A program made the position numbers and the translations under genes. Source: Paludibacteraceae bacterium (GTDB lineage: Bacteria; Bacteroidota; Bacteroidia; Bacteroidales; Paludibacteraceae). Taken from it: a DNA stretch of 49,105 nt. The notes under the pieces are model-generated. The model ran no database searches. It saw only the letters and a program-made list of their open reading frames with translations, and was not told where the DNA came from. Every line of letters starts with the position of its first letter. Position 1 is the stretch's first letter. Location of the stretch: NCBI GenBank assembly GCA_017630395.1, contig JAGBVI010000072.1, positions 1-49,105 of the forward strand, written 5' to 3'. This document shows positions 501-44,765 of this stretch, piece after piece.

Positions 501-791
501 TCACTTAGAAATTTTATAGCCCAACTTCAAGATTAATCGGATTGTTTTCATAGCTGTATCCCTGTCGTATGATCGCTCTTGCTCAGACAATTGTTCATAC
601 GGGACTAAATTGGAATGAGTTTTCAAATCCTCATCTATAACCTCGCCATAGCTCCACCCTTGCTGAAGTTTCTTTTGTGCCCAAACCTCATGCACATTCC
701 TCGCTATCAATTCTGTCAATGCTTCCAAATCTGCTGATAATTCAACATCAGACAAATCTATCGGACAAGGTATATACTTATCATTTTTCAT
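501..791 (-). CDS. Small RyR-domain protein
   Basis: 96 aa, almost entirely one domain. The pattern IDLSDVELSADLEALTELI, then N-VHEVWA--K---GW-YG and a distal SYDRDTAMKTIRLILKLGY matches the bacterial form of the ryanodine-receptor (RyR) repeat domain, in which the conserved core is VWA...GW.yG...h..lvpy..L...ek..dr. Stand-alone RyR proteins of about 100 aa are common in bacteria and phages; their ligand is not established. It is the last gene of the six-gene minus-strand operon, 7 bases after the stop of the RCK/RyR membrane protein, whose own C-terminus carries a related segment. No signal peptide or membrane segment; cytosolic. The RyR call is firm on pattern, the function unknown. Confidence 0.85.
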   Translation of the reverse strand: MKNDKYIPCPIDLSDVELSADLEALTELIARNVHEVWAQKKLQQGWSYGEVIDEDLKTHSNLVPYEQLSEQERSYDRDTAMKTIRLILKLGYKISK

Positions 792-798
792 TATTTTC

Positions 799-2757
799 TT
801 AACTTAACAATTGTTTCAAATTCAAAATCTTTATGGAGTCATAAACATATATAGACTCTCCGGATATTGATTTCAACTCTATATATGGTTTAATATCACA
901 ATGCACGTATCGTCTTTTAAATACAGCTTTTTTCGACTTATCTTTTAAAATCTCTGCATCCTCACTCTCTGTTGTAGGACGATACCCCAACAACAACTCT
1001 TCAATATTCCAACGATTATGTTCCACTGCAGCCATCATCTCCATTTGAGGACGGGTTATGCTATCCGGAATACCATTGATCCCATTAACAGAACGCACAT
1101 AGGAATCTAAAGACATAACACTGTAAATATTAGACCATTTTTTCACAATAGACAATTTTTGCCACGCCAACTCCTCTTCCCTCTCATCTTTTACAACACT
1201 TATGCACGAAACGGTCTCATACAAATAGTTTAACTTCTTCGCTCTTCTAATCAATTTATCATCAGAAATATAAGACTCATCCATCATGCCAAATGGATAT
1301 ATATTATTGAACTTATCCGAAGTCAACAACTCCTTCTCATACGCATACAAAATGGTATTACGATAGAAAATAGGGATATTCTTCTCGTAAAAAATCTCCG
1401 GCAAATAAAAGGCTACATTCTGACATAATTTTTGGGAATCATAACAAATCGCCATAGACAAATATTCGTTCGTGTTATCCTCTTGTTTCTTTGCTAAAAT
1501 CTCCCAATAAGTATCATCAAAATCAGGCACTTGACAAAACTCCCACTCTATATCCAAAAAATCCTTAGAGGGGAGAAACTCATGTCGATTGGACTCTTTC
1601 CCATCCGAGTACTCATGATACGATACATACGACAAATCAAAAAGAGCCCTATATTTACTCCTAAACTCTGCCATTTTTTTATGAGCATCAGCATCAACAA
1701 AGGTTATTTTGCTCCTTTTCTTCGCCGTAAGAAAATTGGGATAGTGAGCAATATGCGCAGCGGTTAACGCCATTGCATATCCCATATCTGTCATTCCGCA
1801 GACTACCAAATGGACATTACATGGAGATTCCACACCAATTCCCTCTCTATCCAAAGGTGGATAGATGATACCATGCTTACGAGAGCTATTATCCACCAAA
1901 ACTTTTCGGCACCACATCTCCTCTTTATTCATCGTAATCAATTCGTAATCAGGACCATCTGAAAGGGTGGTGATATTACCAACTCTTGAAAGCGAAAAGG
2001 TGTGTCTGTCTTGAACCAATACATGACAACTTAAATCCTCCTTGCGACCTCTCTTTTTGCAAAGATCCACAATTGTATGGTAAGCCATCAGGTTTTGAGC
2101 ATCACGGTCATCACCAATCTCCCCTAACAGATAAATAGCTTTAGTCCGATGCAAAGAGAGTTTCTCCAAGTCGCTCATAGAGTTTAACCGACATCTTACC
2201 ATAACAATCCGCTTTGCATCGGAAGAGGAGAAATAACCTTTAACAAATTCACGCCTATTGTTGACTTGATCCGAAACACCCAATACAACGAATGAGTCGG
2301 GATATTTTTGCAACAAATCACCAATTAAATAGACAACAGAATTATCGAATCCTAAAATCAGCTGGTGATTATCAAAAGAATAGGAGGTCAAACCATTACG
2401 AAAAGATTCTGCTCTCGTTCTAATTGCATTGGATAAAGTAGCAATCAACAAGCCACTGACGAACACCATTCCCACAACATAAACAAGCAACAGTCTGAGG
2501 TACTCTTGCACATCAAACGACTCGTTATATGCTATAGCACGAAGCGAAACAGGAGAAATCATATCCACAAACAAAGAGGATATAATTTGCGAGAAAGATT
2601 GCTCTTTACAGTCAGGAAAAAAGAGGATAAACAAGAATAGAAGAGCAATAAAAATAAACAAACACATCCACAACAATTGATATTTAACCAATCCTGAAAA
2701 AGAACGGTCGAAACTCAACTGAAACTTAGACACTATTTCTCTTAAACGCTTTCTCAT
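799..2757 (-). CDS. Inner-membrane protein with tandem RCK/TrkA-N-like domains and a RyR-like C-terminus
   Basis: 652 aa. Two strong membrane segments (about residues 25-50 and 87-112) are followed by a Rossmann-like region starting near residue 130 (LILGFDNSVVYLIGDLL) and a second one near 318 (VHLVVCGMTDMGYAMALTAA, a GxxxxG fold). This layout resembles ligand-gated ion channels of the RCK type, including the Castor/Pollux group, although no classical TVGYG selectivity filter is visible between the two helices. The C-terminus (about 570-640) contains MMAAVEHNRWNIEELLLGY, which is like the core of a RyR repeat. The start ATG overlaps the stop of the upstream barrel gene by 4 bases. It probably senses a cytosolic nucleotide and gates an ion or other flux; this is inferred from domains. 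It may instead be a non-channel sensor. Confidence 0.65.
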   Translation of the reverse strand: MRKRLREIVSKFQLSFDRSFSGLVKYQLLWMCLFIFIALLFLFILFFPDCKEQSFSQIISSLFVDMISPVSLRAIAYNESFDVQEYLRLLLVYVVGMVFVSGLLIATLSNAIRTRAESFRNGLTSYSFDNHQLILGFDNSVVYLIGDLLQKYPDSFVVLGVSDQVNNRREFVKGYFSSSDAKRIVMVRCRLNSMSDLEKLSLHRTKAIYLLGEIGDDRDAQNLMAYHTIVDLCKKRGRKEDLSCHVLVQDRHTFSLSRVGNITTLSDGPDYELITMNKEEMWCRKVLVDNSSRKHGIIYPPLDREGIGVESPCNVHLVVCGMTDMGYAMALTAAHIAHYPNFLTAKKRSKITFVDADAHKKMAEFRSKYRALFDLSYVSYHEYSDGKESNRHEFLPSKDFLDIEWEFCQVPDFDDTYWEILAKKQEDNTNEYLSMAICYDSQKLCQNVAFYLPEIFYEKNIPIFYRNTILYAYEKELLTSDKFNNIYPFGMMDESYISDDKLIRRAKKLNYLYETVSCISVVKDEREEELAWQKLSIVKKWSNIYSVMSLDSYVRSVNGINGIPDSITRPQMEMMAAVEHNRWNIEELLLGYRPTTESEDAEILKDKSKKAVFKRRYVHCDIKPYIELKSISGESIYVYDSIKILNLKQLLS

Positions 2758-4112
2758 TTAGCAGTACCAATAATTATTTGATCAGAACGAACCCCTTTCG
2801 CCATTAACATCTTTTTCAAATAGGTCAGCAAGACACGATCATTCCGTAAGACTCGCTGATCGAGATTCTTTCTGCTCTGCTCTTCTCCAACCAAGAATAC
2901 CTTATCATGAGGATTCTCCTTTAAGGATAAGGACAAACGATTCACCTCTTTCTCCATCAAAGGATTGACAAATTCATTTCCCGGAATATAGAAGGTAAGC
3001 TGCAATTTTTTACCATTTGTACATAACAAAGTTACTGTTTTTTGTCGAACATCCAATTGTTGCACATTTTTCTTTGTAACCTTAATTCTCGATTTTACAC
3101 TCTCCGTCTTCTTCGGTTCCACTTTCGCGGTATCGACAACAACCGTATCAACAGGAATCGTATCCAAAACCAATGAATCTAACGTATCTTTTATCTCAAT
3201 CGTATCTTCTATCATTATTGGCAACAATGGAATCGTATCATTGGTTAAATGGTTCAATTCCAATGGGTGTTTTTTCTCTTTCATCCAATTCACTTGAATA
3301 CCCAACTTTAAACCTAAAGTAAAGTATTTCATTTTATCAACAAAATCAGGAGCAAAAACATTATGACTCAACATATCGTTATCAAAATTATAAAACGAAT
3401 GTTCCTGATTCAACTCCACACCATTTCTTAGGGCATAGGAGGAGTAAGCAGCCATATAAAATCCTACCTTATCGGTAATATCCCTATCAAAACCCAACTC
3501 AGCAAAAACGGACAAATTCCACTTTGTCAAATCCAATTTACCCACCTGCTCATACTCACCCTGAGGGAATCGACCGGGTAAATCATAAAATTCGATATTC
3601 AAATCGGGATAGTAGCCCCTGATATCATATAAGCCGGATGTTTTATAGGTAGAATAAACAGGTAGGCCCAACAACGCCCCCATTTCTAAACGGAAATGAG
3701 CTTTCTTCTTTCCAAATTTAAAGGCAAGAGAAACCGGCACTTCCAGCAACAAGGCTCGCTCTCGCTCTTCCATATCTAAATGACGTCGTTTCTCAAAAGA
3801 GTAACCATAATTAAGTTCATCAACATAAACAACAGTATCCGGAATAGAAGAATTGAGCTGAAATCTCGAATGATATAGGTTCGCATAAAGACCAACTCCC
3901 AAACCGATATTCTTATGAAAAAATCCCAAATAGTCCAGTCCGATTTTACCACCAAAACCTTCACTCTGAGTTCCTAATTCCGGGTCAAAATGCAAAGTAT
4001 GAAAACCACCTCCCAACTCAATACCAAGTTGCGACCCCACTCTCTCTTGTGCATTCAAAATACCAAAGATGAAAGCCACCAATACTATCAATATATACTT
4101 AACTTTCATCAT
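2754..4112 (-). CDS. Outer-membrane beta-barrel protein with OmpA-like C-terminal segment
   Basis: 452 aa with a signal peptide (MMKVKYILIVLVAFIFGILNA). Residues about 22-270 alternate aromatic/glycine-rich strands typical of a Bacteroidota porin-like barrel (PorT/OmpW style). A low-complexity linker of D/T/V/P (about 285-345: repeated DT-IP, DTVVVDT) leads to a C-terminal region with NLDQRVLRNDRVLLTYLKKM and a following GVRSDQIII, reminiscent of the peptidoglycan-binding OmpA domain (NxxLSxxRAxxV-xYL), but shorter and diverged. It overlaps the flanking genes by a few bases on both sides. Inferred role: outer-membrane anchor or port linking the surface GLUG protein encoded just upstream to the cell wall. 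Confidence 0.65.
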   Translation of the reverse strand: MMKVKYILIVLVAFIFGILNAQERVGSQLGIELGGGFHTLHFDPELGTQSEGFGGKIGLDYLGFFHKNIGLGVGLYANLYHSRFQLNSSIPDTVVYVDELNYGYSFEKRRHLDMEERERALLLEVPVSLAFKFGKKKAHFRLEMGALLGLPVYSTYKTSGLYDIRGYYPDLNIEFYDLPGRFPQGEYEQVGKLDLTKWNLSVFAELGFDRDITDKVGFYMAAYSSYALRNGVELNQEHSFYNFDNDMLSHNVFAPDFVDKMKYFTLGLKLGIQVNWMKEKKHPLELNHLTNDTIPLLPIMIEDTIEIKDTLDSLVLDTIPVDTVVVDTAKVEPKKTESVKSRIKVTKKNVQQLDVRQKTVTLLCTNGKKLQLTFYIPGNEFVNPLMEKEVNRLSLSLKENPHDKVFLVGEEQSRKNLDQRVLRNDRVLLTYLKKMLMAKGVRSDQIIIGTAK

Positions 4113-7100
4113 TCAATCAAAATTTTATCACTAACAATCTTTTTATCAGACAAATAAACAGTCACTACATAATAGCCGGAAGGGAGTCTAAGTTCATTCA
4201 ACTTAGTAACCGGTTCTCTACGAAGAATTTCCATACCCGACTCATCAGAAACAGTCATCACAGCCTTATCAAAATCAGGAGCCATCACCTCCACATAAAA
4301 CGGCTGCATTGCTCTCACCGGATTAGGGTATAACGAGAGGGTTGGAGAACTACTTTTCGCCTCCTCGCGCACAATTAAAAGAGGACATATCGGCACCAGA
4401 TTACCCGAAGTATCAATAATATCAACAGAATACAAGCCCGGAGTCAGACCTTGCGGTTCATAATAAAACTGACCCATTTCATCTTCCAACAATTCACCAT
4501 CGCGATACCATTGATAAGAAGAGAAGAGAGAATTAGGATTCTTAATCGCAATAACGTCTCCCCAGCCACCCATTTCAATCAAGACTGAGTCTTGGTTGAG
4601 TTTAACATCTGTATTATAAGTTCTATAACAACCATCAATTTCAGTGACCAATTGAATACGTCTATCCTCATTTAACACCAATTCAACACCATCAGAGACA
4701 CTAAGAGTATCCACTCCATATCTCCAACAATAAGACTCAGCCCCTTCTGCATAAAGTTTAATGGTATCGGAAGCACAAATCAAACTTGGACGATGCACTT
4801 TTACATTAGAAAAATCGGGGTCTTTGATATGTAAAGTAGGGTTGGTATAATACTTATTGCCAATCACCACCGGTTGCACTGTACCCTCATCATTTTTTGT
4901 GTATTGCTTGCCACCATATTGCGTTTTGGTACAAAGATTTAAAAGAGTATCAACCCTAAGTGTATCATATTGGTTGAAAGGATCGTAACCAAACTCTAAG
5001 ATAGGGTATCCCTTATTAATCTGCACATTAGCAGCTACCCAACCGGAATAGATAGAAGTATCTTGTTGGATAACCCAATTATTAAGAGCCGTCAAGAGGT
5101 CTGTTGTTCCCAACACTTCGGAAGACAAAGTCCAATCAAACCCTTGCGAATATTCTGCCTCTTTGAAAGAAACAAGATTCCACTCCGGATACTGCGTTAA
5201 ATTTATACTATCTGCATTCCAATAAACATATTTCATTTCTGCATCACTTTCCCTCATATGGAAAAGAGGAATAGTGGAGGCGGAATAACAATTAAAAATT
5301 TTACTACCACTGGTACGATAACCGACTAAAGATGCAACACCTTCATTTCCTCTAATAGTTCCAACATTATAAGAATTAATAATTTCCCCAAGATTACCCA
5401 TTGATGCAATAATACCAGCACAATAAGAGCCTCCACCGAAAACATCACCTCTATTACCACAATTTCTAATTTCTCCACCACCTGCACCAACAATTCCTCC
5501 GGTACAACTACAACCTATAATTGTAGCCAAATTCGTGCAATCTGAAACAACACTATTATCTTTTAACCAAGCAACAATTCCTGCAGTAGCTTGATAATCA
5601 ACGTAAGTCGAAGTACATTCTGAATAATCCAAAACAACCGTACCCTTATTTGAACAATTTAATATTGTACCATAATTAACTGCAACTATACCTGCTAAAC
5701 GTACAGATAAATACGAAGTAGAAGCATACAAATTACCACTATTGGAACAACTTTGAATTAACCCATAATTATTTTCGACTACCAAAGCAATAGCAGTTGA
5801 AGATTTTACTCCTGTCAGATTCAAATCTGACTCTTTAAAATTCAAATTTCTAATCTCACCAGAACTTTGTAAATTTTTAATAAATGCAAAACCATTCGGT
5901 GTATTATTGGCGATACGCAAACCAGTGATGCTCTTTTTATTTCCATTGAAGTAGCCATTAAAATTAGGGATACAGCTCCAAACGTAAGCACCCATATCCA
6001 CAGAAGCGGATAAAATCACCTCTGTATTTTCGAAAGAACTTTGGGTTGCACCATTGTATCCACTTGCCACAGAAGCCAACCATGCCAAAGCTTTTTCATC
6101 CTTGATGGTGATGATTGTTTTGCCATCTGAACCGGTTGTTTCCTCGTAGGAATCAGGACGAGAGGTAACGATATCTGTCCAAAGAGAATTCGACGGTTCC
6201 TCCTCGGGCAAATCCTCCAACGGAGAAAAAGTCAGAATAGGATACCCTCTATTTTCCATATCCTCATCAACACTCCAAGAAGAGTAGATATCATCATCTT
6301 GCTCTGCCACCCATGCATTCAGAGCCTCAACAAGGTCTGTTGTTCCAAATACCTCGTATGACAAAGTCCAATCATTGCCATCAGAACCTTCCGCCGGAGA
6401 AAAAGATGCAATGTTATCCTCTTTAGACTCCTTATGAGTTGCGTTGGAAGAAGGGAAATAGATGTATTGAGCCTTAACGTTACCATCATAATTATCATCA
6501 GTCGAATAAAGAGGTTGGGAGATTGAACTATAACAATTGAGAATAGAACAATCAACTCCATCACCTTCAAACCCCGACAATGCGAATGAACTAATACCAC
6601 TCGGAACAGTTACATTTGCCACATTACAACTATTAAGAATAGCAGTTTCACTACCCGTACAAAGAGCAACAACTCCTCCAGAAGTACTTTTCCCTGAAAG
6701 GCTTCCCTTATTAATTGAATTACGTATCTCGCCATTTCCAAGCAAGTTACAAATACCACCACAACCATTACCGGAAGAAAGAGTACCTTCATTAACACAA
6801 TCAGCGACCAAATTATAATTATAATTGGCTATTCCGCCGACAGACCCTACAGCTGCAACAGTAGCCGAATTTTTACAAGACAAGATTTCACCACTATTAT
6901 GTCCAACCAACCCTCCTGCCGGATAATATGCTTGTACGAAACCATCAGTCGAACAATTTTTCAGAACGCCAAAATTCCATGAAACGAATGAAGCTACACC
7001 TAATTCAGCATTTACATCAATACTAACATTTTCCAATCTCAAGTCTTTAATTTCACCCTCTTTTCTAAGAGTATCTACCAAAGAAAATCCGTTAGGCGAG

Positions 7101-7534
7101 TTGTCATTTATTCTCAAACCTATTATACTATGTTGCAGACCATTAAATAAGCCGTAAAACTCAAGAATTCCGCTCCACACATGCGCACTCATATCCACAT
7201 CTGCATCCAAAACCACCTCAGTATTTTCGAATGAACTTTGGGTTGCACCATTGTAACCGGCTGCCACCGAAGCCAACCAAGCCAAAGCTTTTTCATCCTT
7301 GAGGGTGATGATTGTTTTGCCATCTGCACCGGTTGTTTCAACATAAGAATCAGGACGAGAGGTGACGATGTCTGTCCAGAGAGTATCGGAAGTTTCCCCC
7401 TCCTCCCACGGGTCCCATGGGTCGGCAAAATCGTCATTCGCTGTATCATCTTGCGCTACTCCCACTTGCCAACCGGCTAAGAGCAACAGCAAAATCCATC
7501 CTATTTTTATCAATCCTTTCATAAGCCTAATCAT
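4109..7534 (-). CDS. T9SS-sorted surface protein with GLUG-type repeats and internal duplication
   Basis: 1141 aa. An N-terminal signal peptide (GWILLLLLAGWQVGVAQ) is followed by two long homologous halves. Each begins with SLWTDIVTSRPDSY or nearly so, then KTIIT-KDEKALAWLASVA and a run of short G/N/C-rich repeats (ISGIVAVNYGTILNCSNKG type), that is GLUG-like beta-solenoid units. The halves start near residues 52 and 450 and each ends with a ...LxWxxxQDxxIYSxWxxxxxxxxxGYPIL block. The last ~75 residues (LSLYPNPVRAMQPFYV ... SDKILIE) form a Por secretion-system C-terminal sorting domain. It is therefore exported through the inner membrane and then by T9SS to the surface. The start overlaps the STAND gene stop; an alternative ATG lies 12 bases in. 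Probable surface receptor or adhesin of the operon; the partner is unknown. Confidence 0.8.
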   Translation of the reverse strand: MIRLMKGLIKIGWILLLLLAGWQVGVAQDDTANDDFADPWDPWEEGETSDTLWTDIVTSRPDSYVETTGADGKTIITLKDEKALAWLASVAAGYNGATQSSFENTEVVLDADVDMSAHVWSGILEFYGLFNGLQHSIIGLRINDNSPNGFSLVDTLRKEGEIKDLRLENVSIDVNAELGVASFVSWNFGVLKNCSTDGFVQAYYPAGGLVGHNSGEILSCKNSATVAAVGSVGGIANYNYNLVADCVNEGTLSSGNGCGGICNLLGNGEIRNSINKGSLSGKSTSGGVVALCTGSETAILNSCNVANVTVPSGISSFALSGFEGDGVDCSILNCYSSISQPLYSTDDNYDGNVKAQYIYFPSSNATHKESKEDNIASFSPAEGSDGNDWTLSYEVFGTTDLVEALNAWVAEQDDDIYSSWSVDEDMENRGYPILTFSPLEDLPEEEPSNSLWTDIVTSRPDSYEETTGSDGKTIITIKDEKALAWLASVASGYNGATQSSFENTEVILSASVDMGAYVWSCIPNFNGYFNGNKKSITGLRIANNTPNGFAFIKNLQSSGEIRNLNFKESDLNLTGVKSSTAIALVVENNYGLIQSCSNSGNLYASTSYLSVRLAGIVAVNYGTILNCSNKGTVVLDYSECTSTYVDYQATAGIVAWLKDNSVVSDCTNLATIIGCSCTGGIVGAGGGEIRNCGNRGDVFGGGSYCAGIIASMGNLGEIINSYNVGTIRGNEGVASLVGYRTSGSKIFNCYSASTIPLFHMRESDAEMKYVYWNADSINLTQYPEWNLVSFKEAEYSQGFDWTLSSEVLGTTDLLTALNNWVIQQDTSIYSGWVAANVQINKGYPILEFGYDPFNQYDTLRVDTLLNLCTKTQYGGKQYTKNDEGTVQPVVIGNKYYTNPTLHIKDPDFSNVKVHRPSLICASDTIKLYAEGAESYCWRYGVDTLSVSDGVELVLNEDRRIQLVTEIDGCYRTYNTDVKLNQDSVLIEMGGWGDVIAIKNPNSLFSSYQWYRDGELLEDEMGQFYYEPQGLTPGLYSVDIIDTSGNLVPICPLLIVREEAKSSSPTLSLYPNPVRAMQPFYVEVMAPDFDKAVMTVSDESGMEILRREPVTKLNELRLPSGYYVVTVYLSDKKIVSDKILIE

Positions 7535-10500
7535 TGTTTTCCCACGTATTTACGACTACATTCCATCCGTTAAAAGTTCCTTCTACGTATGTTCCGGTAT
7601 TGAGCCATGTGAAACGTCCTACACCTTGCGGCTGTCCATTCAACAAATAGCCTTCGTAAATCCAATTCTCATTACGCAATGTTCCGTATTTTGGTAACTC
7701 TTTCCCTAACGATATGGAAGCTATATCGATGCCTGCACCTATCGTATCGGTCTGAATAACCTTGCCGTTAGGTTTCATATAAGATACACTTTTTTGTCCT
7801 AACGAATCGGCTACCACCTCCTTCTTCCAATAGCCAAATGGTGCACACGGCTCACCTTTTTTATTTTCATAACTTACTGCAACCAACGACTTTTGCTCGT
7901 CATACTGATAAAGCGTTGAGTGTAACGTATCTCCGGATTGATTCATCGCCACCTCTTTCTCCAACGTCATGCCATCATATACAAGAGTGTCTTTGAAACT
8001 TCCTCTATACTGACATGGGAACATATCTGCATCAAAATAGGTGCGTGAAATAGGATTTCCCAATCGGTCATTTACTAATCGCTCTATAGCATAAGGTTTG
8101 TTTGGAGCATTGATGATATAACCTAACATATCATAATAAACGGTTTCTGTTGGGAATTTATTTTCGTCGTAAAAAATCTCCTTCTTGTTCCACCCTTCTT
8201 TGCTCCTTATTGGTGTTTTCTCATCGCTCGCATAACAAGTGGATGAAACCATATTGCCAAACATATCATACTCATTCACAAAGATTTCTTGATTTTCCAC
8301 ATTCTTGTCTTCGCCGTCCTTATAAACACTCTTGGTCAGATTGTTGAAACGGTCATACTCGTAGGCAATGGAGTGATACTTCTGCTCCTTCATGAGAGGT
8401 TGTTTATTGGCATCAAAGAAAGATTCTCTAATCAAATTCCCCTTCTCATCATACTCGCAGACAATACCGGAATGACCCTCATTCGGGTTCATTACCAAAT
8501 TTCCATCTGCTGAATAATGCCAAGTTTCCAACATTTTATCTTGCTCGTTAAATTCCGACCGAATCTCAGCAAAACCATCTTTGCTATCAACTCTGTTACC
8601 AGCTAAATCCAAATAAATCGTATAAATCAAATTCCCCCGATTGTCATAACCATACCGATAGGTTGCCACTCCAAAAGTATCCACACAAGGTTGTTTCTCC
8701 GCCCCAATATTGGTACGAGAAGTCACCAATGTAGCATTAATCTTATCTTCATACTTTTTCTCTTCCCCTGCAACACCATTCACTACATGTAGTGCTTGAT
8801 CTGCCTTATAGTTTAGGGTTCGTTCCACCTTACCTATCTCGTTGTTTTTAATCTCGGTATAGGCACAACCATTCGGCATCAACTTCTTGTTCTCGTCATA
8901 ATATCCCACCAAACTGACACACCCCTTATCATCGTAACGATACCAAATAGCATGACATACCACACCATATTTATTTTTGATAGAAACCGGTTCTCCCTTT
9001 TCATTATAAAAACTCTCGGATATCATTCTTCCCTTGTCATCATAATCATAAATCTGCTGAGCAAAACCTAACTTATTCACGCAGATTTCTCCTCGCACAT
9101 CCACGTTGATTTTCTTTATCAACTTGCCATCTTTATACTCAAACTTGGTTGTTGCCTCGCTTCTACGGTCATAGACGTTCATGCCCGACTCATCAACTAC
9201 GCTTTTCCGAATATACCGTCCATCCTCACCCAATTCCCATTTGTAAGCGTATGCATAATTTTTATCCTTATCGCGATTCCCCCACGCATCAAAAAACTCA
9301 ACTGATTTACGATAACCATCATTATCCAATCTGATATGAACATTGTTGGCACCATTTTTGAAAGATTGAATCGGATAACCATTGGCATCAATATACATAC
9401 CCATGCATTTTACCAACTTATCATTTTCGAAATCATTGACACTATAACAAAAACTATAGATCAAATTGCCGACCCTATCGTATGCTTTCTGTTGAATAAC
9501 CATCTTTTTGCTATCATCCAAGACAAACTCCCACTGACAAACTTGAGCCAATTTTCGAGCCAAAGAGTTTCCTATCAATCGTTTATCTACTACATCTGAT
9601 GCCAAAAAGACCTTATTAAAATCATTATCCTCATTGAAATTCATTGTCCCATTAATAGCGGACAAACGACCCCAATGCGGATTCAAATATCCTCGTTTTT
9701 CCAACCTATAACTCAATGGTCTCTCTTTCACCTCACTCGAAGATAGTTCGTTTATTCCTTTAGGCCACTCATAACAAAAGACAATATTCTCATAATAAGC
9801 AACTTGTTTCATAAAGAATGCCCAATAGGTTCCAGCAATCAAGAGACAAAGGAAAAGAACCAACAAGGACATCAAAATATTTCTCTTTCGGCGGACTTTC
9901 AACTGCTCTTCCAAAACAGCTTGTTGCGCTCTGGCCTCCTCTTCTCGTTTCTGCAATTCACGATTATCTCTTCTCTCTTTTGCCACTTTGCATAAGACAT
10001 CGTGTGTAAATTCTATACGTTTGGCTCCACCCCACTCTTCGATACGAATCAAGCGATTGTTCTTCAAGTGTTCTAACTCCTGCTCTGTAAGCCCTGAAGA
10101 GAGCGCATCATTCAAAGAAACATTATCACGAAACCCATCTTTTGTCAACAAAACATTCTCCAAAAACTCCGCACTTTGAGTCGAAATACCATTGATAGTA
10201 TTAACGTAAAACTCTTGAATAATATCATCTCCGAATGTCTCCAACAAAGACAAAGTAATTTTTTTCTCCTTTTGCTGTTGCCTTTTTTTATCCAATTCAT
10301 TGCAAAACAGCGATAATAGAGCCGGTTCCACACAAATATTATCTGCATGGGTAGATTGCGTTGTCGGACGATAAGCCAACTTATCCACAATCTTCTTTGC
10401 CACCTCTTCTGTGACAATTCCCTCACCCGGTTTCAAAATCACCTCCATCGCTTGTGCGCCACTCATGGCTTGCAAACTATACCGATTGCTCTTCAATGAC

Positions 10501-11147
10501 GGGATAGACTCCGAGCACTCCTCTAAGCGAGCTAAAAAATCTTCGCGCAAAGAGATGATGATTCTGAAATTATCATCACGGTCTAAATACGGACTTCTTA
10601 ATTGATGTTTATTTAAATACGTTTGGATTGATAAAGGAACTTTACCATCGCACAAGTCAGATAGTTGAATAAAAAAATCTTCTACCCATTCCTGATTTTT
10701 TGAAAGAGTGAACAATTCCTCAAACTAGTCTATGAGAATCATTGGTACGATTGGGTAGTTATTCGCATCCCAAAACGAATTGGCGTGAAAATACTCCCAC
10801 AAAGATGGGACGTGATCTACCACTTCGACCACCACTTCTCGCTCTGCCCCATTTCGAGCTAATTCTGCCTCTATTGCATCAATAATCTGTTTTGTGTAAT
10901 GAACATCACCTGCTTCATCCAAACGAATATATACAGGTAAAAAACCATTTTTCCGCGCCAAAGAAAAAATCCCGGCTCTCAAAATGGAAGTTTTTCCCAC
11001 ACCGGAAGGACCATAAACTACGGTCTGCGTATGAGAATATATATCTTCGGACAATTCATGAATCTCGTTTTCACGTCCATAGAACAATTCGGCATCCTTC
11101 TCTTCGTACGAAGACAAACCTAACCAACGAACTGAATTATTATCCAT
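7527..11147 (-). pseudogene. Membrane-anchored STAND NTPase with periplasmic repeat region, interrupted by an in-frame amber codon
   Basis: One reading frame runs 11147 to 7527 (about 1206 codons) but carries a single TAG at 10725-10727 (codon 141 from the ATG at 11147). Upstream of it: GREN box and Walker A GPSGVGKTS (residues about 46-54). At the break, MILID-stop-FEELF exactly replaces the canonical STAND Walker B MILIDQFEELF, so a CAG to TAG change explains it. Downstream, a winged-helix-like segment is followed by a charged coiled stretch, one membrane helix (ILMSLLVLFLCLLIAGTYWA, about residue 415) and a long region of YD/WG-like repeats (YDDKGRMISESFYNEKGEP type), ending in a MORN-like YEGYLLNGQPQGVGRFTW. 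Topology implied: cytosolic NTPase, periplasmic sensor. No other lesion is seen over 3.6 kb, so the event is recent, a sequence error, or read through. The downstream part could restart at TTG 10715 but would lack Walker A. Confidence 0.85.
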
Positions 11148-11159
11148 AATCTTCAAATT

Positions 11160-12452
11160 TTATACGGAAAGAGAACGTACTTCCCTAATTATTTTTTTGA
11201 TATTTGCTTCTCCCATCTCTTCCGAAAAATCCACAGTATGCAGATTATCAAAGAATCCTAAAATAGCATCATCCCAAAGATTAACATCATCCACACGAAT
11301 CGGGAAAATGAATCGGTTATTACCTCTCCATTCCACCTCTTCCTTTGCCCAAGTCCACTCACGTTTGTAGAAACGACGACCTCTATCCAAAACATTTTGA
11401 GAGAGAATAGGGACAAAAGCCCGGCACTCCTCGATATTTTTCTTTATTTTTTGAACATATTCATCACCTGGATCCAAAGAAACTTTATCAAACCAAACCC
11501 CCATTCCAAGTCGTCTGAACGTTTCGGCTACACGATTGGCAACATCATAATCCTCACTTGCGTAGGAGATAAAGACCTCCTTTTTCTCTTCACCCAAAGC
11601 AAATTGCTTATACCTATCCACCAACTCGTCCACAAAAGCATCTGCATCATCATGAATATTGGTGCGCATACGAGATAAAAAGCCTACCAACTCTGCATCC
11701 AACTTACTATCTGCAATCAATCCCATCTTTGAAGAGGGACGAGCCACCGACTTCATAGAATGCAAAAAGAAACGAAATAACCAATCGGGATAACTACAAC
11801 CTATAACCAACAAATATTTATCTCGCAAAAGATTAAACAACTTTTTAGGACGATAACTTTCCGACATCCAATCACTAATAAACTCCAATAGATTATCATC
11901 AGAAAGAACAAAAGAGTTGGGGCAAACATTTGCTTTTCCAAACATTTGATAACAAGTGGGCACTGACTCATCCTCTATATCCTGCTTGCAACTATTATGT
12001 TCATAATGCAAATTTTTCACCTTCCCATTACCCCACACTTCTTCCATAGCATGAAAAACTGCATTACCAAAAGAGGTTGTCAAAACCAACTTAAATTTAT
12101 CAATAGATAAAAACTTCTTTAAGGTTTCAGAAATTTTCAGTTCGCCGGACTCTATTCTTTTTAAAATTTGAGTAGTTTCATAATATGGGTCAGAATCAAT
12201 AGCATCCCAATAGGGTTCAAAAAACTTACTGGCCAACTGCGTTGCATCCAATCCATCTTCATAATCCACACCAACACTTTTAGCCAATTCCATAGCGATG
12301 TACTTCTTCAATGGAATCTCTTCACCTGCAACATTTACAGTAAAGAATTTATCACCAACGATAGGAATCACATTGCCCTTTTGAATTTCAGTCAACAATA
12401 ACGTCCACCCTCGTTCATTTAATTTCGTTGTCTTCTGTATAAATAACTTCAT
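11160..12452 (-). CDS. SIR2-like/TIR fusion protein
   Basis: 430 aa, no signal or membrane segment. Residues about 15-280 resemble the SIR2_2-type Rossmann domain used in bacterial immunity: GNVIPIVGDKFFTV near the start in place of the usual GAG loop, and the closing LLVIGCSYPDWLFRFFLHSM typical of these domains. Residues about 288-430 are a TIR domain: KKEVFISYASEDYDVANRV, then WFDKVSLDPGDEY and AFVPILSQNVL, with a following acidic EW-WAKEEVEW stretch that could supply the catalytic glutamate. In known systems (Thoeris, DSR) SIR2 and TIR domains cleave NAD or make NAD-derived signals; here that is an inference and one of the two may only bind. First gene of the six-gene operon; the STAND gene follows 12 bases after its stop. 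Confidence 0.85.
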   Translation of the reverse strand: MKLFIQKTTKLNERGWTLLLTEIQKGNVIPIVGDKFFTVNVAGEEIPLKKYIAMELAKSVGVDYEDGLDATQLASKFFEPYWDAIDSDPYYETTQILKRIESGELKISETLKKFLSIDKFKLVLTTSFGNAVFHAMEEVWGNGKVKNLHYEHNSCKQDIEDESVPTCYQMFGKANVCPNSFVLSDDNLLEFISDWMSESYRPKKLFNLLRDKYLLVIGCSYPDWLFRFFLHSMKSVARPSSKMGLIADSKLDAELVGFLSRMRTNIHDDADAFVDELVDRYKQFALGEEKKEVFISYASEDYDVANRVAETFRRLGMGVWFDKVSLDPGDEYVQKIKKNIEECRAFVPILSQNVLDRGRRFYKREWTWAKEEVEWRGNNRFIFPIRVDDVNLWDDAILGFFDNLHTVDFSEEMGEANIKKIIREVRSLSV

Positions 12453-13049: not shown

Positions 13050-13634
13050 TTAGTTTTCCGACGCACTAATCTCTACAAGTTTTCTCCATCGCAAATAACC
13101 CACTATCGCCAAAATCGTATAAAGCGAATAGAGTCCTGCTGTAATAGGGATTCCCTTATAGATGTAAAGTCCAACCGTTGTTGCATCCACCACTAACCAA
13201 ACCAACCACTGCTCCACATACTTTTTAGACAACATCCAATAGGCTAATATACATAATGCCGTTGTGAAACTATCCATCACAGGAACAGTACTGTCCGTAA
13301 ATTTAACCAAGAAGAAATAAATGGCAACGTGCAAGAATGCATAGGTAAGAAATAAAATAGGAATTTCTTTTAAAGGGGTATATTGAATAGCACCTTTCGA
13401 CTCATTTTTAGGGGCATTATTCCAAACAATCCACCCATATATCCCAGCCAGTACATAATATAATTGCATGCAGAAATCGGCATATAATCCTGAGGTAAAA
13501 TAGAGGTAACCATGCACCATTGGCATAATCAATCCAACAATCCAAAGGTAAATATTAGCCTTATACTCTAAATAGAGATAGATTAGTCCTAAGACCACTC
13601 CAATTATTTGTAATAACAACTTCAATTCCATCAT
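13050..13634 (-). CDS. pnuT: PnuC-family transporter, probable thiamine transporter PnuT
   Basis: About 194 aa from the ATG at 13634 (the frame can be extended eight codons or so upstream to a TTG, which is less likely). Seven or so hydrophobic helices and the PnuC-family signature region (LEYKANIYLWIVGLIMPMVHGYLYF, YYVLAGIYGWIVW, WLVWLVVDATTVGLYIYKG) mark a facilitative vitamin transporter of the inner membrane. Classical PnuC takes nicotinamide riboside. Here the gene follows 37 bases after a TonB receptor whose leader holds a TPP riboswitch, so thiamine (or a thiamine precursor) is the expected substrate, the arrangement named PnuT in Bacteroidetes. No thiamine pyrophosphokinase follows; the next feature is a MITE copy. 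Confidence 0.82.
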   Translation of the reverse strand: MMELKLLLQIIGVVLGLIYLYLEYKANIYLWIVGLIMPMVHGYLYFTSGLYADFCMQLYYVLAGIYGWIVWNNAPKNESKGAIQYTPLKEIPILFLTYAFLHVAIYFFLVKFTDSTVPVMDSFTTALCILAYWMLSKKYVEQWLVWLVVDATTVGLYIYKGIPITAGLYSLYTILAIVGYLRWRKLVEISASEN

Positions 13635-13671
13635 CAAAATTTTAAATGGGTTCAATACATATAGAACTTAC

Positions 13672-15876
13672 CTAAAATTCATACCTGACATTAGCAAGTA
13701 CATTAAACGTAGCTTGAGGGAAATAAAATACCTCATTCACCCTTTTTCCTCCATAAATTCCTGAGTAGCCATAAGCATTGCTGCAATACTTCGCATTAAA
13801 CAAATTGTTAAAGGACAATCCAAAACGTAATCCCTGAATCTTGTTTGTTTTCAACAAATATCCAAGTTTCAAATCAGTAACGCTATAAGCATCCAACTTC
13901 ATATCCTCTTGTTCTGAATTGGTAATGTATTGTTCCGAAACAAATTTAGAGATCAACTGAGCTTCAAAACCTTTCACGTCGAACTTCAGAAACCAACCTG
14001 CCACCACGCTCGGAGAGTAGGAAATCGTTGTGGTTCCTAAATGAAGAGTGTCTAAACTCCATGTATCATCATTATAAACATACTCATCATAGTTTTTAAT
14101 TCTATTCTGACTAAGAGTTACATTACCTCCAAACGAAAACCAATCCAAAGGCTTAACAGCTATATCCAATTCGACTCCTCTTCGATAGCTATCTTTGACA
14201 TTTTCATACAATGCATCGTAGGTATCCATATTTTGTTGACCTGTCAGTACCAACTGATTATCATAATCCATATAATAGAGATTCAAGCCAAAATTCACAT
14301 ACTTATGTTGCAATTTATATCCAATCTCATAATCAAACATTTTTTCTGGTAGCGGATAAAGAGGTTTCCCGTCTGGATCTTTTCTCGCATTCACAAAATC
14401 ATCGCGAGTAGGTTCTCTTTGAGCCACGGCAAAAGAAGCAAAAATAGAATTGTATTTGGCAAAAGTATAATTCACCCCGGCTTTAGGATTAAAGAAATGG
14501 TACTTCTTATCCACATCTACCTTAAGCATATCATTGGTGGCATAATTAAAGGAAGAGAAAGTTCCTCCAATAACATGATGAATATATCTGTACTGCATAT
14601 CACAATAGAGGTCAAACCCATTGAAAAGATTAAACGTTGCTTTAGCAAAAAAATTCATATCTGTTTTATCTCCTGCATTGCGATAATATTCATGCGGCAA
14701 AGAGAAGTTATTGGGAACAAAAACACTGAGCACCTCTCCAAAATGTTCTCCGGTATAATGATTTGCCGCCAATCCTAATGCTAAATTGGTTCGAGTTGAT
14801 TCATACTTAACAGACCCCACACCTCCGAAAAAGTGATTATACATTGATTTTTTTCTCGTGAGATTGGAACTCTCCTTATCACCTACTATTGGCAAGGTAT
14901 AACAAACCAAATCAGCGTCATTCTTATATTGGTCGTAATAGCCATTTCCGTAAGTATAGTGCCCAACAAGGTTCATGTTCCAACGACTATTAAAAACATG
15001 ATTTAAAATCAACTGATTATTCCACTGAAAATAATTGTCAACTTGATTGTCATAAAAAGCGATTACCTTCCCGTCTGCATCCTTTATTTCTCCACATGGG
15101 TTATATCGTCTGTTTTCCTCCATTTGGTTTTTCGTGAGTCCGTCCCATGCATTATAGGTTTCCTCTTTTCCTCCAAATGTCAGATACTTTAAAGTGGTCT
15201 TACCCTTGTAATAAGCTGCTTGAGCAAGGAAAGATTTCATATCGGAAGAGGCCCTTTCTATGTAACCATCTGAGTAGATATGAGAGAGTCTGGCACTGAG
15301 AATCCAATGTTCACCTAAAAGTCCGGAATGAATACCTATCGACTCTTTATTCGTATTAAACATTCCATACAAAAGAGATACTTCGCCACCAAAATCTTTT
15401 TTCAACGTCTCTGTAGTCATATTGATAGAGCCTCCAAAAGCACCGGCACCATTAGTTGAAGAACCAGCCCCACGTTGTATCTGCATCGAATTAACAGCAG
15501 AAGCCAAATCAGGCGTATCCACCCAATACATTTTATGTGACTCTGCATCATTCATCGGGACACCATTCGTTGTAACATTAATACGAGAGGCATCAACTCC
15601 CCTGATACGAATGTCGGTGTATCCCACACCATTTCCGGCATCAGAAGTAACCACAACAGAGGGGGTATTCTGAATCAAATAAGGGATGTCCTGACCATAG
15701 TTATTGGACTGTATCTCCTTTTGCTCAATATTGCTATGTGAAATTGGAGTTTTCTCCGAAACCCGTATAGCCGATACCACCACCTCTTCCAAATTCGTAT
15801 AAGAACTGATAGAGTCATCTACTGCCCATAAGTAAAAAGGGAATAACAAGAATGTCAAAAAATAAATCTTTTTCAT
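13672..15876 (-). CDS. TonB-dependent outer-membrane receptor, thiamine-regulated
   Basis: About 734 aa from the ATG at 15876; the longer frame to 15900 would use a GTG within the leader. A signal peptide (MKKIYFLTFLLFPFYLWA) is followed directly by a plug domain (SSYTNLEEVVVSAIRVSEKT TonB-box area, then QDIPYLIQNTPSVVVTSDAG, IRIRGVDASRINVTTNGVPM, GSINMTTETLK) and a 22-strand-type barrel ending in FNVLANVRYEF with the terminal aromatic. No carboxypeptidase-like N-terminal domain, so it is not SusC-type. It imports a scarce ligand across the outer membrane using TonB energy. The TPP riboswitch upstream and PnuT downstream make thiamine or a derivative the likely cargo. Confidence 0.9.
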   Translation of the reverse strand: MKKIYFLTFLLFPFYLWAVDDSISSYTNLEEVVVSAIRVSEKTPISHSNIEQKEIQSNNYGQDIPYLIQNTPSVVVTSDAGNGVGYTDIRIRGVDASRINVTTNGVPMNDAESHKMYWVDTPDLASAVNSMQIQRGAGSSTNGAGAFGGSINMTTETLKKDFGGEVSLLYGMFNTNKESIGIHSGLLGEHWILSARLSHIYSDGYIERASSDMKSFLAQAAYYKGKTTLKYLTFGGKEETYNAWDGLTKNQMEENRRYNPCGEIKDADGKVIAFYDNQVDNYFQWNNQLILNHVFNSRWNMNLVGHYTYGNGYYDQYKNDADLVCYTLPIVGDKESSNLTRKKSMYNHFFGGVGSVKYESTRTNLALGLAANHYTGEHFGEVLSVFVPNNFSLPHEYYRNAGDKTDMNFFAKATFNLFNGFDLYCDMQYRYIHHVIGGTFSSFNYATNDMLKVDVDKKYHFFNPKAGVNYTFAKYNSIFASFAVAQREPTRDDFVNARKDPDGKPLYPLPEKMFDYEIGYKLQHKYVNFGLNLYYMDYDNQLVLTGQQNMDTYDALYENVKDSYRRGVELDIAVKPLDWFSFGGNVTLSQNRIKNYDEYVYNDDTWSLDTLHLGTTTISYSPSVVAGWFLKFDVKGFEAQLISKFVSEQYITNSEQEDMKLDAYSVTDLKLGYLLKTNKIQGLRFGLSFNNLFNAKYCSNAYGYSGIYGGKRVNEVFYFPQATFNVLANVRYEF

Positions 15877-15929
15877 CGCACATAATTTCAGGGAGTGCAC
15901 TACAAAATGACATTCTATCCTTGCGAAAA

Positions 15930-16391: not shown

Positions 16392-19300
16392 CTACTTAAA
16401 AGTAATCTTATAAGTATTGAAGTTTGATGCGTTCTTATCGAAATTTCCTGCCCAAACTACAATCGTCAAAACTCCTGTGGTTTTATCATAATCAGCACAA
16501 TACTGAGCTAATGGACTCACCTGAATCGCCACATCTGATGCAGCATAATCACCATTGATAGTTGAATTAAATTGAAGTTTATCGAAAGAACTATCCACGC
16601 CATTGATAGCAAACGAAGTTACGTATGCCTCAAACACAAACGAAGAAGAGAACTTGATTACGTATTTATGTGTATTGGCAGGATCTTTCTTGATATTACC
16701 TCCATTAACGGTAAGAATTAATGAATTAGCCTCTGCATCAAACTTCTCTGTAACAGTTGCCAACTCATCTGCCTCATATCTGATTTTCAAGTCGGAAAGA
16801 GAACCTTCAAGATAATATTCATATACATCCTTGGCAAATCCTTCCATTTGAACACCATTCACCGTAACATTCACAAGTTGAGAACCATAATAGGTTGGGT
16901 CTGCAAATGAGATGGTATAAACATGATAGTTGGAAGAATTTGTTTCATAATCACCACCCTCTACGCGGAGTGTCAATACGAAATTTTTATCATCGTAGGA
17001 TGTTTTTACCGTAGCTGCACTATCAGCAATATAGCCAACGATACCGTCACTATAGAATTCGGTAGAGATATATTGGAAATTATCTTTATCAAATCCCTCA
17101 ATAGTTGTTCCATTGACTTTTAAATCAACTAATTTAGAAGATAGAGGCTGACCAAATTGTAACTTATAAGTTTTAAAATTATCGTCATAAGTTGCAATAT
17201 CACTTCCCTTAACAACAATTGACAACACATTGGTTTCCGGATCGAAAGATTTTTCGACAGTGGTACCACTCACACCCTGACAAATAATCTTGGCATTTTC
17301 ATACACTACAGAAGCCAAAGAATAATCATACTTATCAGCAGAGAAACCTGGAACACTAGCAGCATTGACCTTCAACAACGTGAGAGTAGCAGGAGCATAG
17401 AACTGAATCTTATAGGTATGAGTATTAGACGGATTGGTTTCAATATCATTTCCGGAAACAACCAATGTCAAAAGATTTGCTTGATCATCAAACGATTTTC
17501 TAACACGTGCCTCTGCGTCAACCGTATAATCTATCTTCTTCTCAAAATCCTCGTATGCGCCACGCACCAAATAACTATACTTGGTCTTTGCAAAATCCTC
17601 CAACAACACTCCATCAATGGTAAATGAAGTAAGGAAAGAGCCGTATGAAGCATGGAATTGCAAAGTATAGGTATGCTTATTATTTGGATAGAGATCCAAA
17701 TCTGTTCCGGTTACCACAATTGTCAAGATAGAGGTTTCCGAGTCGTAGTTAGAAGTAACTACAGCCCCCTCAGTAGCAACGTATGCAACTTTATCACTTT
17801 CGTATGAGTAAGCAGACAAATCGTAATTGTACTTATCTGAGCGGAAAGTTGGCACAGTAGCACCTCCAAAAGTCAATTCCGTAAGAAGTGTTTTAGCACA
17901 GAATTGAATTGTATAAGTGTGGGTATTTTCGTTATTAGATGCATAGTCACCACCTTTTACCTTAATAAACAAACGATTGGTAACCGGATCAAAAGTATGA
18001 GAAGCAGTTGCTTCATCATCAGCCTCATAAGAAACTTTACCCTCTTCATATATTTCTTCCACCTTGTAATCATACTTATCAGCAGCAAAATCAGACAAAG
18101 CAACTTTGTTTAGCGACAAAGACTTCAACTGAGAGCCATATGCTTCGTGGAAAACAATGGTGTAGGAATGAGTATTTTCCGGATTCACTGCTATATCCGC
18201 AGCCTTTACAACAATCGTATAGGTTTGAGTTGCCTCGTCGTATTTTTTCTCAACTGTTGCCTCGGCACTTGTTTGGAAATCTATTTTTGTTACACCATCA
18301 GTATAAACATCCGGAACCGAGTAGGAATATTTTGTAGAAGAAAATCCGGAAAGAGTTGTTCCATTCAACTTAAGATCGGTAAGGAATGATTCGTATGGAG
18401 ATACATACTGAATTTTATACTCATGGAAATTAGTACTGTTATCTGCAATATCTCCACCTTTAACCGTAATTGTCAGCAAATAGGAGGAGTTATCAAAAGA
18501 TAATTCGTAGGTTGCATCTGCATCAGCAACTATAGTGAGTTTTGATTCATCGTAAGTTGTTGAAACAGCATATTCATATCTATTTGAGGAGAATCCTGAG
18601 ATCTTTTTTCCATCTATTGCAAGCGATTGCAACTGAGAGCCATACGAAGCATGGAATTTTATTTTGTAGGTATGAGTATTAGAACTATTGGTAGCATAAT
18701 CGCCACCTTTAACCACTAATACATAAGTTAAACTTGCAGCATCAAATTTTGTTTCAACCTTAGCCTCTGAACTTTGTTCGTACGTAACACTTGTCTCACC
18801 TGCCGTATAAACCTTTGCAGAGCTATAGGTATAAGTAGTTGAAGAAAAATCAGCAACAGAAACTCCATCAACTTTCAATGAAGTTAAATAGGATTCGTAT
18901 GGAGCATGGAATTGAATCTTATAGGTATGAATATTCGACTCATTATCTGCAAAATCAGCCCCTTTAACTACCAACGTATAAATATAAGTTTTCTCATCAA
19001 AAGAGGTTGAAACAGTTGCCTCTTTACTTTGCTCATAAGCAACTTTTGTAGTTCCATCTTTATATACCTTAGACGAAACGTATGAATAGGTTGATGAAGA
19101 GAAGTCTGCAACCGAAACTCCGTCAATTTTCAAGCTCGTCAAATAAGAGTCATACGAAGCATGGAATTGAATCGAGTAGGTATGAATATTCTCCTTATTA
19201 TCTGCATAATCTACACCCTTAACAACCAACTTATAAATCAAAGTTGCAGCATCAAAAGAGACCTCTACTGTAGCTTTTTCACTTTGTGTATAGGTGACTT

Positions 19301-20894: not shown

Positions 20895-21028
20895 ATCGCT
20901 TAATTTTTAATTTTATTCAAATTCTAAGTATAATCGCCATTTTTTCGTGAGGCGACCTTACACCGTTTATTTAATTATCTGTTTTTAGCGAGAGAAGGAA
21001 GTACCCCTCACTCCTCTCACTCTATTGA

Positions 21029-44761: not shown

Positions 44762-44765
44762 CATT

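Follow-up and report, generated by a model that had tools for sequence, protein, structure and literature searches.

We analysed a 49,105-nucleotide stretch of DNA from a Paludibacteraceae bacterium (the window; contig 55 of genome G000, other genomes being labelled G and fetched loci L, each with a number) that carries a row of six genes on its minus strand. In order of transcription they encode a SIR2-TIR protein, a STAND protein, a surface protein, an outer-membrane barrel, an RCK/RyR membrane protein (below, the channel) and a standalone RyR-domain protein (Table 1). The first-pass annotation of this DNA had described six minus-strand genes that overlap or lie no more than 12 bases apart, and the coordinates are as it claimed: SIR2-TIR and STAND are 12 bases apart, the next three junctions are overlaps of 8, 4 and 4 bases, and 7 bases separate the channel gene from the RyR gene. 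It had also placed one promoter ahead of the row. A match to what we take to be the Bacteroidota-type consensus is indeed present 58 bases before the first ATG, but the window holds three such matches against 2.7 expected by chance, and the promoter was therefore dropped as evidence. An Rfam scan of the window gave nothing above gathering score.

Table 1. Predicted features of the six-gene row (positions in the window)
Feature	Position	Strand	Family or remark
SIR2-TIR protein, 430 aa	11160-12452	minus	Pfam TIR_2, SIR2_2
STAND protein (broken here): nSTAND1 NTPase in the cytosol, a single membrane helix and a periplasmic arm bearing RHS/MORN-like repeats	7527 to about 11147	minus	Pfam nSTAND1, RHS_repeat
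In-frame TAG within the STAND NTPase	10725-10727	minus	
Variable surface protein of 1141 aa with a signal peptide, two repeats of GLUG type and a T9SS (type IX secretion system) sorting tail	4109-7534	minus	
Outer-membrane barrel of 452 aa; periplasmic tail OmpA-like	2754-4112	minus	placed through relatives
RCK/RyR membrane protein of 652 aa with two helices, an RCK part like that of CASTOR/DMI1 and a RyR-like domain at the C-terminus	799-2757	minus	placed through relatives
Standalone RyR-domain protein, 96 aa	501-791	minus	Pfam RyR PF02026
Promoter-like match TTTG-N18-TATATTTG ahead of first gene	12540-12511	minus	weak, chance level

Scattered homologues, or conservation of pairs only, had been set beforehand as the outcome that would tell against a common unit. 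What was found is that SIR2-TIR, STAND, surface protein, barrel and channel keep their order, strand and near-overlapping junctions in four genomes belonging to three genera (G000, G006, G463 and G479). G006 holds all six genes at the same place. In G463 and G479 the identities are 68-69% for SIR2-TIR, 47-48% for full-length STAND (56-59% for its nucleoside triphosphatase (NTPase) and 40-42% for its arm), 36-37% for the channel, 28-29% for the barrel and, over the parts that match, 28-32% for the surface protein; in these two genomes, with script-called starts, neighbouring genes are separated by 10 or 6 bases or overlap by 4 to 17. The four operon members were monophyletic in FastTree trees of the channel (82 tips, support 0.993), SIR2-TIR (27 tips, 0.999) and the STAND NTPase (33 tips, 1.0). 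All six genes of the window's own row are under purifying selection, as judged by the ratio of non-synonymous to synonymous substitution rates (dN/dS) in comparison with G006, which is 0.021 for SIR2-TIR (the slowest), 0.033 for STAND, 0.071 for both RyR and the barrel, 0.095 for the channel and 0.25 for the surface protein, the fastest and most loosely constrained. This inside-to-outside gradient would fit a receptor role of the surface protein. The proposed set of six genes in one order thus held for five of them, and the idea of one unit with products from surface to cytosol was supported; we consider it highly probable that the row is a conserved functional unit.

The STAND gene of the window is split by an in-frame TAG into two pieces (10725-11156 and 7527-10715) that lie in one frame, with the break inside the NTPase. 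The gene itself ends in TAG, so that the internal TAG is a real stop codon and its reading as a recoded amino acid was excluded. Pfam nSTAND1 matched the two pieces (E 4.8e-16 and 2.4e-7) and an RHS repeat was also found (E 1.1e-7); a phmmer search of solved structures with STAND found nothing. Three other genomes have intact copies, and the relative in G006 is an uninterrupted frame of 1209 residues with a membrane helix at residues 431-449. The first-pass view of a STAND protein with a periplasmic repeat arm stands by domains and helix, but the window's gene is broken. It is possible, and we lean against it, that the window copy is simply decaying and that nothing about function can be read from it. 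The stop agrees with decay, as does a surface protein about 760 residues shorter than that of G006. However, the other frames are all open, the other three operons are intact, and dN/dS is as low beyond the stop (0.036 and 0.031) as before it (0.035). Selection equally strict on both sides indicates that the stop is either recent or an assembly error, for which a single substitution could suffice.

A family-wide search with the intact STAND found matches in 17 of a sample of 300 genomes (E 1e-25), and a search of the order found relatives in 26/393 (E 1e-15); in the genera of G463 and G479 STAND is present in one of six and one of four genomes, respectively, and the rest are without it. Thirty-two STAND loci were fetched, and 26 were counted after removal of five that carry only the arm and of L191, where the open reading frame caller preferred a competing frame to that of STAND; L012 and L016, which came from the channel search, were left out of this count. 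In 23 of the 26 loci the gene next upstream of STAND is SIR2-TIR, or in 22 of 25 without L206, which had been fetched first for its SIR2-TIR match. A RyR or RCK/RyR gene lies within 8 kb of STAND in nine of the 26, and separate scans located a RyR-type gene at two more, L200 and L207 (the latter via the overlapping L016). STAND and RyR, the latter (PF02026) present in 37/393 genomes, share a genome in six cases against 2.4 expected if independent, and in five of these six they lie within about 7 kb of each other. At L121, L199, L200, L207 and L217, exported proteins with repeats like those of the STAND arm replace the surface protein and the barrel.

The loci that carry only the arm link STAND to the envelope genes. 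Four members of the window's genus (G003, G004, G013 and G014) encode a protein of 729-731 residues that corresponds to the STAND arm without the NTPase and aligns with STAND from just before the membrane helix to the end at 35-40% identity by two aligners; G002 has a strongly diverged form of 598 residues (28% identity). In all five loci the arm gene is followed by a GLUG-type surface protein gene and then by a barrel gene. That the envelope genes are unrelated to STAND, the other outcome named in advance as adverse, was thus not borne out. Since arm, surface protein and barrel occur together with or without the NTPase, the trio looks like a unit, and STAND like this periplasmic arm fused to a switch. 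A sample of the class gave no arm in its 394 other genomes (E up to 1e-10), on which basis the arm as a feature found outside the family was rejected.

Just upstream of the trio, four of these loci have a gene for an MscS-type channel of 868-870 residues (L211:4844-7450; equivalent position in L212, L213 and L214); the L211 copy matches Pfam MscS domains (1.3e-11 and 8.5e-10), the other three are 78-94% identical to it, and no MscS gene was seen at the fifth locus. Both forms of the envelope trio therefore adjoin an ion channel gene. An envelope-stress or osmotic response rather than immunity could follow from this arrangement, the trio sensing the mechanical or envelope state and being coupled to a channel of the RCK/RyR or MscS type, with TIR and STAND adding a dormancy switch. 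We judge this unlikely: the MscS gene accompanies the trio in four of five loci, but TIR and STAND are typical of conflict systems and the surface protein varies as arms-race receptors do.

The surface and barrel proteins were only partly recognized by profiles. Among the domain calls of the first-pass annotation, RyR, TIR, SIR2-like, nSTAND1 and RHS repeat were recovered, but the GLUG repeat of the window's surface protein fell below the Pfam cut-off and its T9SS tail (TIGR04183, cut-off 23) scored 21.1 bits. The same tail scored 23.0 bits in G006, 29.0 in L208 and 18.4 in L211, and no match was found in the surface proteins of L209 and L221; Pfam Por_Secre_tail was above cut-off in L208 alone among the relatives scanned. 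The window's genome encodes the T9SS sortase PorU (1018.6 bits). Operon surface proteins range from 706 to 1898 residues. Neither the barrel nor the channel of the window matches a Pfam family on its own, whereas barrel relatives match OMP_b-brl_2 and the barrel family profile matches OmpA-type domains in the tail. In the alignment, operon-type tails are without the GH[TD] stretch, which we take to be relevant to peptidoglycan anchoring by OmpA tails, and a role of the tail as peptidoglycan anchor was therefore rejected. Barrel relatives occur in 57/393 genomes, and directly upstream of the barrel in 11 of 20 loci selected from these matches lies a protein with a tail like that of the window's surface protein, in otherwise unrelated surroundings.

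Pfam identified TIR_2 (1.4e-21) and SIR2_2 (5.6e-8) in the SIR2-TIR protein. In alignment with the NADase KomC, the catalytic SIR2 histidine is replaced by F or L in 27 of 27 relatives and the asparagine is kept in two, whereas the TIR glutamate that we take, from work on SARM1, to be catalytic (E365 in the window's protein) is kept in 26 of the 27. The SIR2 domain thus looks inactive and was rejected as an active NADase, and the TIR domain, not SIR2, is likely the enzyme of the operon acting on nicotinamide adenine dinucleotide (NAD). Of the earlier picture of SIR2-TIR as an NAD effector, the TIR half remains. Within the window's genus some SIR2-TIR match is present in 12/16 genomes: close ones (98-100%) in G000 and G006 only, a 28% relative in G002, and weak matches to part of the TIR domain in nine.

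To place the channel we scanned a genome collection, in which 278 relatives were confirmed and the best 80 of the 278 were kept. Over the RCK part its family profile matches CASTOR (3.7e-7), DMI1 (2.1e-6) and channels of the TrkA type, and over the tail it matches RyR structures; two membrane helices are predicted ahead of the RCK part, and the L209 channel passes the Pfam cut-off for Slo-like_RCK. A DPG[NS]-like pore motif, DPGN presumably resembling the filter of CASTOR, is found in 37 of 82 channels. The tail has no Pfam match and aligns with RyR by hhalign (79%, E 1.6e-5). Among 74 channel sequences 24 columns are invariant; eight of these fall within the final 75 residues, among them H580, W583, H619 and D640, which are kept in 82 of 82 aligned channels. 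The standalone RyR protein matches PF02026 (E 3.4e-35; 120.6 bits against a cut-off of 27.4) and the solved RyR1-3 repeats. Its residues H34, W37, H59 and D76 have a spacing of 3, 25 and 42, identical to that in phage RyDEP, whose H75, W78, H100 and D117 hold the cyclic ADP-ribose (cADPR) product according to the RyDEP preprint (PMC13232231). Six of eight phage RyDEP homologues tested bound the signals, and none cut them (PMC13232231). The equation of the channel-tail residues with those of RyDEP is based on order, residue type and the hhalign alignment; with it, the nucleotide-gated channel of the first-pass annotation gains support from the invariant residues as a candidate assignment.

Genomic context also connects the channel to TIR. 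A TIR gene lies within 5 kb of 30 of the 80 channels and of none of the 20 barrel loci used as control (Fisher p 0.0006). For a separate RyR gene at the same distance the counts are 40 of the 80 and again none of the 20 (Fisher p 1.4e-5). Both p values are optimistic because loci share ancestry. Two channel loci without a usable anchor were scored as misses, and some loci of both sets are short. Ten of ten channel-adjacent TIR genes scanned with Pfam passed the TIR_2 cut-off. The TIR enzyme might, alternatively, kill by NAD depletion alone, the channel tail and the standalone RyR protein being brakes or antidotes that mop up ADP-ribose products rather than receivers. We find this improbable. 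The standalone protein does carry the same residues as phage RyR proteins, which act as sponges or glycosidases (PMC13232231), but a brake needs no membrane channel body, and both body and RCK part are kept throughout the channel family.

The least probable alternative is that independent modules lie side by side and share only a transcript: pairs (SIR2-TIR/STAND, T9SS protein/barrel and RCK/RyR with RyR) are conserved far more widely than the full set and each occurs without the others in many loci, but the order is kept over three genera at 28-69% identity with congruent trees, and the arm, which is part of STAND in one setting, goes with the surface protein and barrel in both.

In our preferred reading, an envelope-spanning NAD-signalling system, the fast-varying T9SS surface protein at the outer-membrane barrel would sense an outside event such as a phage, a rival cell or damage to the envelope. 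The event would reach the inner membrane by way of the periplasmic tail of the barrel and the long STAND arm, as the conserved trio of arm, surface protein and barrel suggests, and the cytosolic STAND NTPase would activate SIR2-TIR, as the conserved gene pair suggests. The TIR domain would then turn NAD into an ADP-ribose-type signal, the SIR2 half, judging from its residues, no longer being an enzyme. The signal may bind the RyR-like domain of the CASTOR-like RCK channel, change ion flow and arrest or kill the cell, and the standalone RyR protein of this genus may, like phage RyDEP proteins, hold or cut the signal and in this way set the threshold. Of the parts, the relay from envelope to STAND seems rather probable to us; a TIR signal read by the channel has an even chance, and defence as the purpose could go either way. 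The reading as a whole, drawn from sequence comparison, falls slightly short of even, and its most specific form, a receptor pathway across both membranes in which a cADPR-type messenger of the TIR partner opens a RyR-domain channel, is doubtful.

Several observations weigh against this reading. Only four full operons were found, all in one family, and in G463 and G479 the standalone RyR gene is absent from the row. The window's own STAND is broken, and the chain is probably silent in that genome. The hhalign match of the channel tail to RyR reaches only the values given above, and the spacing of the residues in the channel domain is 3, 39 and 60 instead of the 3, 25 and 42 of RyDEP. The pore motif is absent from operon-type copies (window, G006, L208 and L209). 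Finally, no TIR gene lies within 5 kb of 50 of the 80 channels, some of them on short contigs.

Comparison with known systems revealed partial likenesses. As in Thoeris, a TIR enzyme shares an operon with a protein whose domain may bind cADPR-type signals; different here are the STAND and envelope chain in front and a channel with a RyR-like domain as presumed receiver. The PADLOC ThsB profile matched the window's TIR protein (24 bits, E 5.9e-6), but no ThsA profile, and hence no ThsA-type effector, turned up when the seven window proteins were scanned with PADLOC, and no Avs profile matched, STAND being scanned as its two pieces; membership in Thoeris or Avs was rejected on these matches. Avs/AVAST systems share the STAND switch, whereas here the effector-like SIR2-TIR is on a separate gene and a membrane helix and periplasmic arm are present. 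DSR-type SIR2 NADases share the SIR2 fold, but its catalytic residues are lost here. CASTOR/DMI1 (POLLUX) plant ion channels share by profile the first RCK part, preceded by membrane helices; here two helices are predicted, a RyR-like tail is added and operon copies are without DPGN. The four ligand residues are shared with phage RyDEP and the RyR R12 domains (PF02026), RyDEP being a free phage protein that opposes TIR signalling, whereas here the domain stands beside TIR genes, both on a channel and as a free protein. A search of open-licence papers in PubMed Central found none describing such a system.

TIR immune signalling is known with intracellular triggers and a few effector types. Here a physical chain of parts appears to connect TIR chemistry to a surface receptor, and the same chemistry appears connected to a channel family whose RyR-like domain keeps the residues with which RyDEP holds cADPR; if the pathway is true, an immune-type system would be sensing the outside of the cell, and bacteria would have a counterpart of messenger-gated ryanodine-receptor signalling. 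That RyR domains act as genuine receptors of such signals is still an open question in animals as well (PMC13232231), and the channel family with its RyR-like domain may offer a small, testable bacterial version of this question.

Further arrangements were seen at loci of the channel and its partners. At L096:8232-9782 and L110:1224-2915, the gene directly ahead of an RCK/RyR channel encodes a TIR domain joined to seven or eight WG repeats. L121:12283-15239 and L016:7294-10044 carry soluble RCK/RyR versions (500-519 residues) followed by another protein, for which the L016 copy showed trypsin domains and weak similarity to FHA. A small gene with an MTDxEI-type start directly precedes a RyR-domain protein (324-373 residues) near SIR2-TIR/STAND at L190:1491-3036, L210:828-2502 and L215:12539-14003. 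L016, L121 and L210 resemble the clusters of TIR, STAND, FGE, trypsin and RyR genes reportedly surveyed by the Aravind group among nucleotide-centred conflict systems.

In G000 and G006 a PnuC-type NMN_transporter gene and a TonB-dependent receptor gene lie just upstream of the operon (window 13050-15900). A nicotinamide-type transporter beside an NAD enzyme is suggestive; these genes adjoin the row in these two genomes only, different genes being found at that place in L208 and L209, and they were rejected as parts of the system. The PnuC-type transporter is present in 2/16 genomes of the window's genus. Elsewhere the window encodes two long repeat proteins (16392-26971), of 1500 residues with no confident family and of 1980 residues with Listeria-Bacteroides repeats, and a type III restriction-modification pair (42836-47405) consisting of a methylase of 641 residues and a ResIII helicase of 879 residues.

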